A stretch of DNA of 40,995 nt from Ardenticatenales bacterium (lineage in GTDB: Bacteria > Chloroflexota > Anaerolineae > Promineifilales > Promineifilaceae): positions 1 through 40,995 of the forward strand of contig JACKBM010000060.1 of assembly GCA_020634575.1 (NCBI GenBank). Direction: 5' to 3'. Made by a program: the position numbers and the translations under genes. Below the pieces are notes generated by a model. It ran no database searches. It saw nothing but the letters and a program-made list of their open reading frames with translations, and had not been told where the DNA came from. Shown piece by piece: positions 2,709 through 38,770 of this stretch (position 1 is its first letter; the number at the start of each line of letters is the position of its first letter).

Positions 2709-3320
2709 TCAGGGCCGAAAACCCCACAGGAAAGCCCGCGCCAGGGCAGGGCCATCCTGTTTGAGCGAGAAGGTGTCAGCCAGGAGCAGCCATTGTTGGA
2801 TGACGCCATTCTGGAAAGCGCTAAAAGCACGGGCGGCTACCAGCGGGTCCAGGTCAGCGCGCAGACTGCCCTGGTCGATGCCAAATTGCATGTATTGGGC
2901 GATCGCCGCCAGGTTGGCCTGGCTCTGGTCGAGCAAGCGGGCTTCGACCGCCGCCAGATCGGGCGCCTGGTTGCTCTGAAACATCCATAGCCGCAAAATA
3001 TCGCGTACCTGCTGATTCTCCTCGACGAGGGCGAACCAGCGCACCAGAATCTGCTCACAAATTGTCAGGGCATCGCCGCCGCCAGCGGCCACCGCTTCTG
3101 CCAGCACGGAACCGCCGGCAAGATTGGCCGACTCCAGCAGCGCCTGGTACAGCTCTGCCTTGTTCTCGAAGTGGTGGTAGACAGCACCGCGGGTGACGCC
3201 GGCCGCTTTGGCGATCCGCCCCAGATTGGCGGCGTGATAGCCGTATTGGCTAAATTCACGCAGGGCGGCAGCCAGGATATCTTCGCGTGTCTGGGCGGCT
3301 TCTTCAGCAGTTCTTCGCAT
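2709..3320 (-). CDS. TetR/AcrR family transcriptional regulator
   Basis: A 203-residue TetR-family repressor. Residues 1-60 form the helix-turn-helix domain, with the family signature ILAAALREFSQYGYHAANLGRIAKAA, GVTRGAVYHHF and ENKAEL. The remainder is a helical ligand-binding domain of ordinary length. The frame is open to a TTG at 3356, but the ATG at 3320 is preferred: the palindromic operator and a promoter lie immediately before it, and upstream codons would run through them. No ribosome-binding site precedes the ATG, consistent with a leaderless message. It lies 57 bp from the CPBP protease gene on the same strand. Presumably it represses itself and the downstream protease, hydrolase and cyclodeaminase genes until a small molecule binds. 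Confidence 0.93.
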   Translation of the reverse strand: MRRTAEEAAQTREDILAAALREFSQYGYHAANLGRIAKAAGVTRGAVYHHFENKAELYQALLESANLAGGSVLAEAVAAGGGDALTICEQILVRWFALVEENQQVRDILRLWMFQSNQAPDLAAVEARLLDQSQANLAAIAQYMQFGIDQGSLRADLDPLVAARAFSAFQNGVIQQWLLLADTFSLKQDGPALARAFLWGFRP

Positions 3321-3321
3321 G

Positions 3322-3356
3322 ACATACATACTAGCATGTATGTTTGTGTTCGTCAA
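3322..3356 (-). promoter_or_regulatory. tetR promoter with overlapping palindromic operator
   Basis: On the minus strand, TTGACG (3356-3351) and TAGTAT (3333-3328) are separated by exactly 17 nt, a good -35/-10 pair. The -10 box lies inside a 22-bp near-perfect palindrome (3322-3343) with arms ACATACAT and ATGTATGT and central CTAG; only one base pair is mismatched. Transcription from this -10 would start at about 3321-3320, on the A of the start codon, giving a leaderless mRNA. Operator overlap with the -10 box fits autorepression. Confidence 0.75.
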
Positions 3357-14654: not shown

Positions 14655-16040
14655 CTAATCTGTATGGTGGTTTTGATCGTAGAGCAGGCTTTTAATCGCC
14701 ATGACATCCTGCCGCACTTCCTGGTCGGTGTCCAGAAGACCTTCGATTTTGTCATGCCCGTACATGACGGTGGTGTGATCCCGCCCACCGAGGGCGGTAC
14801 CGATCTGGGGCAATGACGCATTTGTTTCGGTCCGGCAGAGATACATGCCAACCTGGCGCGGGTAAGCGACCCCTTTGCTACGCCCCTTGCCATTGAGCGC
14901 TTCCTCGCTGATGGCAAAATGGTCGCAGACCTTGTCCAGGACATCCTCAATGGTGACCTTTTCCCGGACCTTGATCAGGTCTGAAAGGGCGGAACGGACC
15001 AGGGCCATATCAATGGGCGCGCCGGTCAGCTCAGCATAGGCGACCACCTTGGTTAGGGCGCCTTCCAGCTCGCGGATGTTGTTGCGCACCCGCTGGGCGA
15101 TCAGGTCCATCACCTCATCGGGGATGTGGACGTCGACTTGCTCCGCCTTGGCGCGCAGGATGGCGTGACGCGTTTCGATATCCGGCATCTGAATGTCGGT
15201 CATCAGACCCCATTCAAAGCGAGACTTCAGCCGTTCTTCCAGCGTTGTCATCGCCTTCGGGGGCCGGTCGCTGGAAAGAACAACCTGCCGGCCAAGGCTA
15301 TGCAGGTCATTGAAGGTATGGAACAGCTCTTCCTGCGTACTTTCCTTGCCGGCGACGAACTGAACATCGTCGATGAGCAGGACATCGGGCGTGCGATACT
15401 TTTCGCGGAAAGCGGCGGTTTCCTGCGTCCGGATGGCCTGAATCAGGTCATTTGTAAACGTCTCCGAGGTGACGTAACAGACCGTGAAACCATTCTCCAG
15501 GCAACGGTGACCGATGGCATGGAGCAGATGAGTCTTGCCCAGCCCCACGCCGCCATAGATGAAGAGCGGGTTGTAGGTGTGACCGGGTTGCTCGGACACG
15601 GAGAGGGCGGCCGCATGGGCCAGCCGGTTGCCGTGACCGACGACATAGTTTTCAAAGATGTAATGAGGCTTCAGGCCTGCGGTGAGCGATTCGGCGGCGG
15701 GACCGGCCGGTGCTACATGGCCATTGTGCTGGCCATTCACTGGGGGGGTATGCCGCTCGCTCTGTTTCTGACTGCCATTGGCCGGAGCCGGAACGCCATT
15801 GCTGACCACATAATCGATCTTGACCGGGTTCCCAACAACGGTGCTGAGCGTCCGGTGGATCGTGTCATTGAGCCGATTGGAGAGCCAGTCACGAGCGTAA
15901 TCATTGCGCACGCCGATGACGTAACTTTCGTCTTCAACTCTTAACAGATGGGCATCCTTTAACCAAGTGTTAAAAGTCGCCCTGGTCATCTGCATTTCCA
16001 GTTCCCCAAGAGCAGCTTTCCAGGCAGACTCGGGTGTCAT
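14655..16040 (-). CDS. dnaA: Chromosomal replication initiator protein DnaA
   Basis: A 461-residue replication initiator that binds oriC and melts it in an ATP-dependent way. Domain I (residues 1-75) includes FNTWLKDAHLL. Domain II (about 76-125) is a short Pro/Gly/Asn-rich linker. Domain III is the AAA+ core, with Walker A GGVGLGKTHLL (K169), Walker B VLLIDDVQF, and FEWGLMTDIQMPDIETR. Domain IV has the DnaA-box recognition signature GRDHTTVMYGHDKI near the C-terminus. The ATG at 16040 follows a GAGAGGA site. dnaN does not follow it; downstream are a terminator and an unrelated hydrolase. The AT-richer region just upstream is a candidate replication origin. Confidence 0.98.
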   Translation of the reverse strand: MTPESAWKAALGELEMQMTRATFNTWLKDAHLLRVEDESYVIGVRNDYARDWLSNRLNDTIHRTLSTVVGNPVKIDYVVSNGVPAPANGSQKQSERHTPPVNGQHNGHVAPAGPAAESLTAGLKPHYIFENYVVGHGNRLAHAAALSVSEQPGHTYNPLFIYGGVGLGKTHLLHAIGHRCLENGFTVCYVTSETFTNDLIQAIRTQETAAFREKYRTPDVLLIDDVQFVAGKESTQEELFHTFNDLHSLGRQVVLSSDRPPKAMTTLEERLKSRFEWGLMTDIQMPDIETRHAILRAKAEQVDVHIPDEVMDLIAQRVRNNIRELEGALTKVVAYAELTGAPIDMALVRSALSDLIKVREKVTIEDVLDKVCDHFAISEEALNGKGRSKGVAYPRQVGMYLCRTETNASLPQIGTALGGRDHTTVMYGHDKIEGLLDTDQEVRQDVMAIKSLLYDQNHHTD

Positions 16041-17793: not shown

Positions 17794-18768
17794 ATGAGCC
17801 TGCCTGAGCGCGACAACCTCACCATCTGCTTTGCCCATCCCGCCTACCAGATGGCGGCCACCTTTGCCCAACGCCAGACCGGCATTCGTCATTTCCAGGT
17901 CTGGAACGAGGCCGATTTGCGGGCTCGCCTGCCGGAGGCGGATCTCCTGGTTGTTTCCGGACTCTGGCGCAATGAGTTGCTGCCGCTGGCGTCCCGGCTT
18001 AAATTAATCCAATCGATCAGCGCCGGCATCAACCAATATGACCAGGTTGCCCTACGCGCCGCCGGCGTTCGCCTGGCCAGCGCGGCGGGGGTCAACAGCA
18101 ACGCCGTCGCCGAACACGCCATCGCCCTGATGCTGGCCCTGATCCGCCATATTCATTGGGGACGCGACCGGCAGCATAAGGGTGAATGGCGTGGCCTCAT
18201 CTCGACCTGAGCCAACGGGAAGATGAATTGGCCAGCAAAACCCTCCTCCTCATCGTGGGCGCCGGCCGGATCGGGAGTCGCCTGGCTCAGTTAGGGGCAG
18301 CGTTTCGGATGCAGGTGTTGGCAACCAAGCGGGATACGTCCAAACCGATTGATGGGGTGGCTGAGCTGCACCGGCCGGGAAACACTCCCCCAACTTCTAC
18401 CCCGCGCTGATTTTGTCGTCCTGACCTGCCCCTCACACCCGGAAACGACTGACCTCATCGACGCGGCCGCCCTGGCCGCCATGAAGCCATCGGCGTTCCT
18501 GATCAACGTCGCCCGCGGCGGTGTGGTGAATGAGGCGGCTCTGCTGGCCGCGTTGCTAGCTGAGCAAATTGCCGGCGCCGCCCTCGACACCGTCGCCGAC
18601 GAGCCGCTGCCGGCCGAATCGCCCATCTGGCGCGAGCCCAAGCTGATCGTCACCCCCCACACGGGTGGCGAAACGCGCCGTTATGAGGCCAACGTTATCG
18701 ACATTCTGCTGGAAAATATCGCCCGCCTCTGGGCCGGGGAAGAGGTGTTGCGTAATCAGATCGTTTAG
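17794..18768 (+). pseudogene. D-2-hydroxyacid dehydrogenase, two compensating frameshifts
   Basis: A NAD(P)-dependent D-isomer-specific 2-hydroxyacid dehydrogenase of about 324 residues after correction. The first 130 residues are read from 17794, then the frame breaks near 18201-18205 (one base missing) and returns near 18376-18384 (one extra base in GGG or AAA). Between the breaks the protein remains well conserved, including the nucleotide-binding GAGRIGSRL. The last third carries the catalytic arginine (LINVARGG), glutamate (DTVADEPLP) and histidine (VTPHTGGETRR). The original ATG has a CAGGAG site about 10 nt upstream. The net length is a multiple of three. Sequencing error or a very recent loss are both possible. 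Relatives reduce glyoxylate, hydroxypyruvate or phosphonopyruvate-type acids. Confidence 0.8.
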
Positions 18769-35767: not shown

Positions 35768-37321
35768 ATGCAGTTTCCACGCGCCGCGGGCGTTCTCCTT
35801 CATCCGACCTCTCTGCCCAGCCGCTATGGCATTGGTGATCTGGGTGATGATGCGTATCGCTTTGTCGATTTTCTGGTGGCCGCCAGGCAGCAGCTCTGGC
35901 AGGTATTGCCGTTAGGGCCGACAGGTTATGGTGATTCGCCCTATCAATGTTTTTCGACCTTCGCTGGCAACCCGCTGCTGATCAGCCCGGCGCGGCTGGT
36001 GCGTGAGGGGTATTTACCGGCCGGTGCCCTCGAAAATGTCCCGGATTTTCCCTCCGATGAGGTTGATTTTGGCCGGGTGATCCCCTACAAAAACGAGCTC
36101 CTGCAGACTGCTTTTGACCATTTCCGCCTCAACGGCAATGTGGAGCAGTGGGAACGCCTGGCCTCTTTCTGCGAGGAGCAGGCCGGCTGGCTGGATGATT
36201 TTGCCCTTTTCATGGCCCTGAAGCAGCATTTTGCCGATCGGGAAGATGGCGGCGTCTGGAACCATTGGCCGGATGAAATTGCCCTGCGGACGCCCGAAGG
36301 TATCGAAAGCTGGACCGCGCAATTGCGTGACGACGTGGAGCGCAACAAGTTCCTGCAATTCCTTTATTTTGAGCAATGGCTGGGGCTGAAGCGCTATGCC
36401 AATGAGCGAGGTATCCAGATCATTGGCGACATTCCCATTTTTGTCGCTTTTGACAGCGCCGACGTCTGGGCCAACCCCGAATTGTATTTTCTGGAGGAAG
36501 ATGGCTCACCCAGCTTTGTGGCGGGCGTGCCGCCGGATTATTTCAGCGCGACGGGGCAGCGCTGGGGCAACCCGCTTTATCGCTGGGAGCGGATGGCGGC
36601 CCAGGGCTACCGCTGGTGGACGAACCGGCTGCAGATGTGTCTGACGCAAACGGATATCGTGCGCATCGACCATTTTCGCGGGTTTGAGGCGTATTGGGAG
36701 ATCCCGGCAGAGGAAGAGACGGCCATTATCGGCCGGTGGGCGCCTGGGCCGGGCGCTGAGCTGTTTGATGCGTTGCTGCAAAACCTGGGCGACCTGCCCA
36801 TTATTGCCGAGGACCTGGGCGTTATCACGCCGCCGGTAGAAGAGCTGCGGGATCGCTATGGCTTCCCTGGCATGAACATCCTGCAATTTGCCTTTGGCTC
36901 AGCAGCGGAAAACCGCTTTCTACCGCATAACATCAAACATCATTCGGTGGTCTACACCGGCACCCATGACAATGATACAACCCGTGGTTGGTACGAAAGC
37001 GAGAGCGACGAGACACGCGATCATGTGCGCCGCTACCTCGCCTGCGACGGCCACGATATTGCCTGGGACCTGGTGCGGGCGGCCAATGCCTCGGTGGCGG
37101 CGCTGGCCATCGTGCCTATGCAGGATCTCCTGAACCTGCCGACCGCGGCCCGGATGAATTACCCCGGCCGGTTAGGCGGCAACTGGCAATGGCGCTATAC
37201 GCGCGACATGCTGGAACCGTGGATCGCGCCGCGGCTGGCTGATTTAACCGAGCTCTATGGCCGCGCCCCCGCTATTCCGGAGACGGATGATGAGGCTGAG
37301 GTCGAGGCAAGCCAGGACTAG
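35768..37321 (+). CDS. malQ: 4-alpha-glucanotransferase
   Basis: A 517-residue GH77 amylomaltase/disproportionating enzyme that transfers alpha-1,4-glucan chains between maltodextrins or glycogen in the cytosol. The start (FPRAAGVLLHPTSLPSRYGIGDLG) is the family signature. The catalytic residues are the nucleophile D301 in IDHFRGFEAYW, acid/base E348 in IAEDLGVITPPV and D401 in GTHDNDTTRGWY. The length is normal for the short bacterial type. The ATG follows GAGGGAAG. Its stop shares a CTAG with the stop of the convergent selenoprotein gene. No other glycogen gene lies in the window. Confidence 0.97.
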   Translation: MQFPRAAGVLLHPTSLPSRYGIGDLGDDAYRFVDFLVAARQQLWQVLPLGPTGYGDSPYQCFSTFAGNPLLISPARLVREGYLPAGALENVPDFPSDEVDFGRVIPYKNELLQTAFDHFRLNGNVEQWERLASFCEEQAGWLDDFALFMALKQHFADREDGGVWNHWPDEIALRTPEGIESWTAQLRDDVERNKFLQFLYFEQWLGLKRYANERGIQIIGDIPIFVAFDSADVWANPELYFLEEDGSPSFVAGVPPDYFSATGQRWGNPLYRWERMAAQGYRWWTNRLQMCLTQTDIVRIDHFRGFEAYWEIPAEEETAIIGRWAPGPGAELFDALLQNLGDLPIIAEDLGVITPPVEELRDRYGFPGMNILQFAFGSAAENRFLPHNIKHHSVVYTGTHDNDTTRGWYESESDETRDHVRRYLACDGHDIAWDLVRAANASVAALAIVPMQDLLNLPTAARMNYPGRLGGNWQWRYTRDMLEPWIAPRLADLTELYGRAPAIPETDDEAEVEASQD

Positions 37322-38016
37322 AACGCGTCCTTAAACTCCTGCACCGCCTTGGGGCCGTTGCGCTCCAGGCCGGCGAAGAACTGATCCCGATCCGAATCGC
37401 GATAATCCAGCCGCTCCACGCGGAAGGGAGACAGGCGCACCTTGTCGCGGCGGCGGTGGGCCACATCCAGGAAGTAATCGAGCGCATTCGCTACGCTGTT
37501 GCTGTCTGACCAATCTGACTTATAAATCGGGATGCCAGCCCGGTTAAAGATCCAGGTCATGTTGGGCATCGAACCGTAGGCGCGGTGGCAGGCGCCATCG
37601 AGAGAGTCCACCAGGATGGTCCGGTCCACGCCATACACTTCGCTTAGCGCATGGGCGTGGTGAAACTTCTGGGCCATCGAGGTCAGGTGCGGGTAATTTT
37701 CGCCGGGGTGGGCCTCATTGGTGTAGAGAAAGACCGAGCCGACATCTTGTGGCGCGTATTTGGCTGCCAGGGCATTCATGGATGGCGCCGCCATCCCACA
37801 ATATGGTCAGGTGAAGCTGCCAAACTCAACGACGGTATACAAATGGCTGGACCACAGCTCTTCTAGCGAAGTCTCCGTCTCATCCAGGCGCCAGAGGGGG
37901 AAACTGGGCGCTTTCTGCCCAACAGGTGGACTCTCTTCAAAACGCATCCAGGGCATAAATTTGTCCGGGACAAACGCGTCGTAGTTGTAGCGGGTTATCA
38001 GGTCAGCAGCGGTCAT
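37318..38016 (-). CDS. Selenoprotein, deiodinase/redoxin-like thioredoxin fold
   Basis: A 232-residue protein if the in-frame TGA at 37809-37807 is read as selenocysteine (residue 70). The two halves are in the same frame with no indel. The sequence around the TGA is VVEFGSFT-U-PYCGMAAPS, which gives a U70-P-Y-C73 redox motif. FGSxTUPP is the active site of iodothyronine deiodinases and related bacterial redoxin proteins. The rest fits that family: FLYTNEAHPGENYPHL, then VDSLDGACHRAYGSMPNMTWIF. The N-terminal half has the redoxin opening GQKAPSFPLWRLD. A perfect hairpin follows the TGA at SECIS distance. The ATG at 38016 has a GGAGGA site. It starts 13 bp after the pentapeptide gene. Probably a cytosolic thiol/selenol oxidoreductase; true iodothyronine activity is not implied. 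Confidence 0.85.
37780..37796 (-). promoter_or_regulatory. Bacterial SECIS-like hairpin
   Basis: On the minus strand GGATGGC and GCCATCC form a perfect 7-bp stem closing a GGC loop. The loop begins 17 nt after the TGA at 37807. Bacterial SECIS elements, as I recall the model, need a small apical loop with a G among its first two bases, about 16-37 nt after UGA; this fits. Synonymous options would allow many other sequences here, so the pairing is notable. Confidence 0.7.
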
Positions 38017-38029
38017 GGGGTCCTCCGGG

Positions 38030-38770
38030 TTAAGGGGCCGTGGAACCATCTGGTAGGATGGCGCCGGTCAGGGAGGCAGCCATGGCGAGCTGCCCCTCGG
38101 TCACAAGGGCGCCGGCGAGATCGGCCTGGCGCAAATTCGCATTGAGGAGATTGGCGGCGAGTAGATCGGCGCCACGCAGGTCGGCCTGCTGCAGGTTCGC
38201 ATTTTGCAGATCAGCGCCAAACAGGCTGGCACCGCTCAGGTCGGCCGCGCCGAGCTCCACACCGTTCAGATTGGCCTGATAGAGATTGGCGTTGGCCAGG
38301 GCGGCGGCGTGGAGGTCACGGCCGCGCAAATCGCGCCAGGCCAGGTTGGCTGCCCGGGGCGTGGGCGCCGCGCCCAACAGTTGCTCCGCCTGGGCCGCAT
38401 CATACTGTTGCCCATTTGGCAACGTGACACCGGTCAGCGAGCGGGCCTGGCGCAGTTGGGCGGCTGTCACGACCGCGCCGGTGAGCTGGGCGCCGGCCAG
38501 ATCCGCCCCCTTCAGGCGGGCGGCGCTCAGATCAGCGGCCAGCAAATTGGCCCCGCGCAGGTTGACGCCGCTGAGGTCTGCCCGGATCAAATTGGCCTCA
38601 CGCAGATCGGCGTTCTGCAGATCAGCGCCGCGCAAATCCAGATAGCTGAGATCAGCGCGAGCCAACTGGCCCTTACGCCGATTGAAGTAGAGCCGCAGAA
38701 AGGCTTGCTGGCGCAGGCCCAGGTAAGCTTTGGTCAGGTACAGCCAGAGGCGGAACAGGTAACGTCGCAT
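38030..38770 (-). CDS. Pentapeptide repeat protein
   Basis: A 246-residue protein built mostly of pentapeptide repeats of the A(D/N)LxX type, in two blocks: about residues 37-108 (ARADLSYLDLRGADLQNADL and on) and about 145-225 (ANLAWRDLRGRDLHAAALAN and on). Each block is followed by a similar SLTGV/ILP(N/D)G segment (TGVTLPNGQQY, TGAILPDGST), which suggests an internal duplication. The repeats fold as a right-handed square beta-helix. The basic N-terminus (RRYLFRLWLYLTKAYLGLRQQ) is amphipathic and may touch the membrane. The selenoprotein starts 13 bp downstream, so they share a message. Some family members mimic DNA and inhibit gyrase; nothing here supports or excludes that. Confidence 0.92.
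   Translation of the reverse strand: MRRYLFRLWLYLTKAYLGLRQQAFLRLYFNRRKGQLARADLSYLDLRGADLQNADLREANLIRADLSGVNLRGANLLAADLSAARLKGADLAGAQLTGAVVTAAQLRQARSLTGVTLPNGQQYDAAQAEQLLGAAPTPRAANLAWRDLRGRDLHAAALANANLYQANLNGVELGAADLSGASLFGADLQNANLQQADLRGADLLAANLLNANLRQADLAGALVTEGQLAMAASLTGAILPDGSTAP

Follow-up and report, generated by a model that had tools for sequence, protein, structure and literature searches.

Does a single in-frame TGA on a contig of an Ardenticatenales bacterium separate two genes, or is it decoded as selenocysteine (Sec) within one? The question arises in the 40,995-nucleotide stretch of DNA that we analyzed (contig JACKBM010000060.1 of assembly GCA_020634575.1; hereafter the window), where two open stretches on the minus strand lie in the same frame with only a TGA between them. 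Our data point, with a probability of about 0.92, to a single Chloroflexota (Anaerolineae-like) selenoprotein gene in which a hairpin would guide decoding of UGA codon 70 as Sec, giving a thioredoxin-fold enzyme of deiodinase-like/redoxin type. The predicted gene and its elements, including a hairpin of the type known as a bacterial selenocysteine insertion sequence (bSECIS), are:

37318-38016, minus strand: putative selenoprotein gene, 232 codons and a TAG stop, translated with TGA read as Sec
37807-37809, minus strand: UGA codon 70, predicted to be read as Sec; TGA conserved in orthologues, Cys in the homologues P0002, P0009, P0122 and P0123
37798-37800, minus strand: codon for Cys73, which from the sequence is presumed to act as resolving cysteine in the UPYC motif (U, Sec)
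37780-37796, minus strand: bSECIS-type hairpin, 7-bp stem, loop GGC at 37787-37789, 17 nt from UGA to loop
38022-38026, minus strand: Shine-Dalgarno-like GGAGG, 5 nt before the ATG at 38016

The frame from 38016 to 37318 contains one in-frame TGA, codon 70 (positions 37809-37807), within the motif FGSFT-TGA-PYC (FGSFT-U-PYC), and Cys73 lies three residues on. A first-pass annotation, made from the letters of the window, had described this arrangement of frame, motif and cysteine, and a perfect 7-bp hairpin with a GGC loop 10 nt after the TGA; we find each of them exactly so. We favor the start at 38016 over an in-frame ATG at 38049 because of the GGAGG 5 nt ahead of it. The split-frame anatomy alone is weak evidence, since the window holds 15 places, the selenoprotein gene included, where at least 60 open codons, one TGA and at least 100 open codons follow one another in frame. 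A perfect stem of at least 7 bp in bSECIS geometry follows 12 of the 1294 TGAs on both strands of the window (0.9%), and among the 15 split pairs only the selenoprotein gene has a hairpin in this geometry, the next best having 5 bp. The combination of TGA and hairpin is raised above chance by conservation of the TGA across orthologues.

A scan of genome contigs identified 23 loci, 59-74% identical, in records titled Chloroflexi or Chloroflexota or with names of families of that phylum. All 23 have TGA at the codon-70 site, followed by PYC in 22 and by SYC in one. Among 396 genomes drawn from the class of genome G018, 29 carry the gene, each with one internal TGA, and 56 genomes of one order gave 16 matches: 15 TGA-bearing orthologues and one distant Cys form. 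When each genome is counted once, the three sets contribute 23, 18 and 4 carriers, and the TGA is kept at the codon-70 site in 45 of 45 orthologue-bearing genomes. In G005, G769 and G773 the gene is accompanied by one or two paralogues that share 46-49% identity with the homologue P0003 and likewise have TGA in this motif; the hairpin codons of these diverged copies are the same as the main gene's. Searches of plasmid records returned one distant match only (31.5%), and in viral contigs 16 stretches fit the pattern, none of them a relative. The 154-residue fragment P0166, which shares about 69% identity with P0003, comes from an assembly named Planctomycetota, on a 4.28 Mb contig, possibly through transfer or mislabelling of the assembly.

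These counts bear directly on the alternative that the TGA is a real stop between two separate genes, or a nonsense mutation in a pseudogene or a sequencing error. Gene callers do treat TGA as a stop, and errors or decay do occur in this record: two frame changes interrupt a 2-hydroxyacid dehydrogenase gene in the window, at 17794-18768. Against this explanation stand the same TGA in all 45 orthologue-bearing genomes, the conservation of both protein halves and the single predicted fold that spans them. We consider it very improbable, and the conservation of the TGA largely refutes it. The first-pass annotation had expected automatic gene callers to split the gene, and this is borne out by database proteins: 113 of the 120 matches listed (of 1795) start at residue 75 or 80, after the TGA, and seven start at residue 1. 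Among the listed matches that start past the TGA is an NCBI "hypothetical protein" of an Anaerolineales bacterium with 99% identity.

The hairpin, GGATGGC-GGC-GCCATCC, has a folding energy of -10.2 kcal/mol on its own, and its geometry fits the published bSECIS model as outlined in PMC13188914. Because the single-sequence folding energy is ordinary for the composition (z-scores of -0.51, -0.03 and -0.10), we used covariation and codon usage instead. In 41 distinct sequences, 94.8% of 287 stem cells hold standard pairs, compared to 57.1% for the best slid register, and both sides have changed in 7 cells versus 1.1 in shuffles that take no account of kinship among the sequences. When 11 sequences were added (52 in total), standard pairs made up 93.4% of 364 cells and both-side changes rose to 11 cells versus 1.8 in shuffles. 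Three stem pairs have changed on both sides in this set: A-U to C-G or U-G, G-C to U-A, and G-C to C-G. The innermost pair is the weakest, being unpaired in 13 of the 52. The pair counts omit L016 (the same stretch as L015), L099 and L100, and the hairpin counts exclude the TGA-bearing relatives without UPYC (L075, L078, L081, L082 and L084). An Rfam search of the window gave no family at the gathering score.

Codon usage in the stem points the same way. We compared 35 degenerate columns in which one amino acid occupies at least 85% of 49 sequences, and found that the three with the most uniform codons are the three stem columns: Ala +6 (GCG in 48 of 49), Gly +4 (GGG in 43 of 47) and Ser +9 (TCC in 36 of 42), against a mean of 0.55 over the 35 columns. 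At each of the six other Gly columns GGC is used most often, whereas Gly +4 in the stem mostly has GGG.

Decoding of UGA as Sec calls on selA, selB, selC and selD, which the first-pass annotation had singled out as a check; we looked for selA, selB, selD and tRNA-Sec in the genomes of relatives and found the machinery in nearly all of 23. In the genomes of the first loci, selA is over cut-off in 22 of 23 (not in G005), selB in 21 (not in G005 or G009) and selD in all 23, each selD with one in-frame TGA; the selenophosphate synthetase of G001-G023 is thus itself a predicted selenoprotein. A tRNA-Sec is over cut-off in 22 of the 23, under a lenient cut-off that 5 of 14 control genomes also pass, and 21 of these matches are firm at 65-76 bits. 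We discounted the match in G014 (86 nt, 49.8 bits) because it is like the second-best matches of other genomes; it is probably another tRNA. Across the 396 class genomes, selA is found in 318, comprising 25 of the 29 carriers and 293 of the 367 non-carriers, and the four carriers without a selA match all have tRNA-Sec and selB over cut-off. Since selA is common among non-carriers too, we regard it as permissive and not specific.

The residue that homologues carry at the Sec site gives a more mixed picture. Cys is the usual partner of Sec, and replacement by Leu or Phe is unusual. The first-pass annotation had expected Sec or Cys at position 70 and held that homologues with neither would refute its reading. 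The expectation stands for orthologues, which have TGA, and for the four full-length homologues with Cys (P0002, P0009, P0122 and P0123); it fails for others, with Leu in P0003 and P0004, Phe in P0007 and Trp in P0005 and P0012, all five of which keep the downstream Cys. Thus, of the seven relatives among the matches listed that are full-length or nearly so, five have neither Cys nor Sec, as do some distant Chloroflexota relatives, but none of the 45 orthologue-bearing genomes does. These distant relatives have TGA in UPYC, UPPF, UPIT or UPLA contexts, or have Ser, Ala, Gly, Asp or Cys. In a phylogenetic tree, one supported group comprises the Leu/Phe rows and another P0009, P0122 and P0123, both within a TGA-bearing radiation, and P0002 and the two Trp rows stand singly among TGA rows, where deep branches are unresolved. 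A search for the Leu, Phe and Trp homologues in whole genomes found none. Cys73 is invariant in a 29-row alignment (A4) whose rows were picked from relatives of UPYC/CPxC type.

The two Trp homologues, both metagenomic, would fit a different decoding in which UGA is read as another amino acid, through Trp read-through or a local change of code. Their Trp may, however, be a product of gene calling under code 4, and Cys occupies the site in the four full-length homologues just named. At least one other gene in the window ends in TGA: the earlier claim that TGA is a normal stop elsewhere held in the one gene we checked, a TetR gene at 2709-3356 on the minus strand. Together with the Sec machinery and the bSECIS-like hairpin in relatives, these observations make decoding as anything but Sec extremely unlikely.

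What kind of selenoprotein would this be? Its sequence matches three Pfam families over their curated cut-offs: Redoxin, AhpC-TSA and T4_deiodinase. Redoxin (PF08534) scores best, at 35.5 against a cut-off of 26.6, and T4_deiodinase (PF00837) is barely over, at 27.3 against 27.0, and is matched by 27 of 29 family members at E <= 0.001. The best NCBIfam match is NF038285 (deiodinase family protein), whose 41.8 bits fall far below the cut-off of 250 bits for membership. Both halves are conserved as protein, and the closest solved structures to the one predicted fold across the TGA are mouse Dio2 (9h48) and Dio3 (4tr3). We predict a thioredoxin-fold redoxin of the bacterial deiodinase-like/redoxin group. 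With Dio2 and Dio3 it would share a thioredoxin/peroxiredoxin-like fold, a GSxT-U-P active site and Y..E.H relay residues; in contrast, Dio2 and Dio3 continue with PPF, lack a Cys three residues on and have a longer omega-loop, where the protein here has UPYC. Using Ser127, Thr129, Tyr157, Glu160, His162 and His182 of Dio2 as the reference for the proton relay, five of six residues align (S67, T69, Y98, E101 and H103), and opposite the sixth, the second His, stands Leu111, next to a His at 110. The omega-loop is not full length, being about 9 residues shorter than that of Dio3 in a profile alignment.

This likeness raises the question of whether the selenoprotein truly serves as a reductive dehalogenase of halogenated aromatics, in the manner of animal deiodinases, or is a general thiol/peroxide oxidoreductase. 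The structural kinship to Dio2 and Dio3 and the five matching relay residues favor a dehalogenase, whereas the shortened loop, which in deiodinases binds substrate, the unaligned second relay His, the higher score for Redoxin than for T4_deiodinase and the resolving Cys73, which suggests a thiol cycle, argue for an oxidoreductase. On balance we think a dehalogenase unlikely. A bolder extension is doubtful: that the gene belongs to a large, mostly unannotated Chloroflexota radiation of deiodinase-like proteins (UPYC, UPPF, UPIT and UPLA) that keep the relay and carry out selenium-dependent dehalogenation, some lineages having exchanged Sec for Leu or Phe and become non-redox. Separately, two loci in Chloroflexota genomes (L075 and L078) carry the classical deiodinase motif FGS(I/V)T-TGA-PPF (their label P in the tree stems from an alignment shifted by one residue), and the distant relatives L081, L082 and L084 have TGA in UPIT/UPLA contexts with no Cys three residues on.

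For this enzyme, we propose the following mechanism, in which Sec insertion itself, the redox cycle and the reductant are inferred. Ribosomes would start at 38016, and SelB with Sec-tRNA(Sec), guided by the downstream hairpin, would decode UGA codon 70 as Sec to give the active site S-F-T-U70-P-Y-C73. The Sec70 selenolate, aided by S67, T69, Y98, E101 and H103, would most likely take an oxidizing or leaving group from its substrate, for which a peroxide, a disulfide and possibly a halogen compound are candidates. Cys73 would then pair with Sec70 as a selenenyl-sulfide, to be opened by a thioredoxin-type reductant or a pyridine-nucleotide disulfide reductase.

Gene neighborhoods give a faint hint about this reductant. 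We compared open reading frames (ORFs) of at least 110 codons within 7 kb in the window and the 23 loci, and found no ORF family common to more than 10 of the 24 neighborhoods; several of the shared families come from one close clade (L008-L018 type). A pyridine nucleotide-disulfide oxidoreductase ORF lies near the gene in six loci (L006, L007, L009, L020, L021 and L023), at differing distances. In L006, L007 and L009 a membrane-protein ORF adjoins it, which Pfam identifies as a VTT-domain protein in L006 and L009:

L006, 10795-13088: disulfide oxidoreductase and VTT-domain neighborhood
L009, 7615-9926: disulfide oxidoreductase and VTT-domain neighborhood

The oxidoreductase is a possible reductant of the selenoenzyme, a hint too weak to build on. 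In the window, the adjacent genes match none of the 23 loci, and two more distant ORFs each have a match in one locus. A 4-alpha-glucanotransferase gene (35768-37321) is convergent with the selenoprotein gene and overlaps it by 4 nt. Upstream lies a further gene, possibly co-transcribed with the selenoprotein gene and without a counterpart nearby in any of the 23 loci:

38030-38770, minus strand: pentapeptide-repeat gene (Pfam), ending 13 nt before the selenoprotein gene

A tRNA search of the window found none, and dnaA lies at 14655-16040 (minus strand), so a replication origin may be near. In the 2-hydroxyacid dehydrogenase gene (plus strand), the N-terminal domain is in one frame, the middle in another and the NAD-binding end back in the first, a pattern left either by decay of the gene or by two indel errors in the record.

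Several observations weigh against a selenoprotein or against parts of the proposed enzyme. In addition to the ordinary folding energy, the kinship-blind shuffles, the lenient tRNA-Sec cut-off with its doubtful match in G014, the lack of selB over cut-off in G009, the search of relatives' genomes in place of the window's own and the second relay His that has Leu111 opposite it, the related rows L022 and L064 do not preserve the stem, and other rows have lost individual pairs. G005, a draft assembly of more than 1100 contigs, has no selA, selB or tRNA-Sec over cut-off despite its selD and two TGA-bearing copies. The co-occurrence of selA with the gene across the 396 class genomes shows no real enrichment. 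Some of the homologues whose residue at the Sec site is Leu, Phe, Trp, Ser, Ala, Gly or Asp are 60-66% identical, and no disulfide-reductase neighbor is seen near the window's gene, upstream of which the window extends only about 3.2 kb. Nonetheless, the gene, the conserved UGA and hairpin, the machinery in relatives and the predicted fold are supported by comparison of sequences. The recoding to Sec put forward in the first-pass annotation likewise draws support from TGA conservation, hairpin covariation, codon constraint, the machinery in relatives and the Cys homologues.

Related selenoproteins have been described before. The Sargasso Sea metagenome has yielded predicted deiodinase-like selenoproteins, and that family (PF00837, UxxC), as presented in PMC1088965, has the same domain, a bSECIS-like hairpin and Sec/Cys pairs. 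Deiodinase-like and Redoxin-family UxxC selenoproteins are listed in the reviews PMC9312934 and PMC13188914; U70-P-Y-C73 fits the UxxC motif that their tables give for the deiodinase-like family, and their "Redoxin family protein" (PF08534, UxxC) is assigned to the Pfam family that scores best here and has the same motif class. A table from 2006 gives three selenoproteins in Chloroflexi (PMC1794560). None of the main texts of PMC13188914, PMC9312934 and PMC1088965 contains the word stem "chloroflex", and a search of open-license literature for selenoprotein with Chloroflexi, Anaerolineae or Chloroflexota returned no title or abstract start on this clade, so prior description is possible. The first-pass annotation had called this an unannotated selenoprotein; the mis-split gene bears this out, but the family as such is already known, and the gene is a firm, previously mis-split member of it.

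The prediction corrects a widespread annotation error, by which split relatives are missing the catalytic residue along with the N-terminal third. Codon constraint and compensatory changes in the stem make the gene a clear example of a coding-region bacterial SECIS under selection. With a deiodinase-type relay and a resolving Cys in a small bacterial enzyme, the role of deiodinases before thyroid hormone would become testable.
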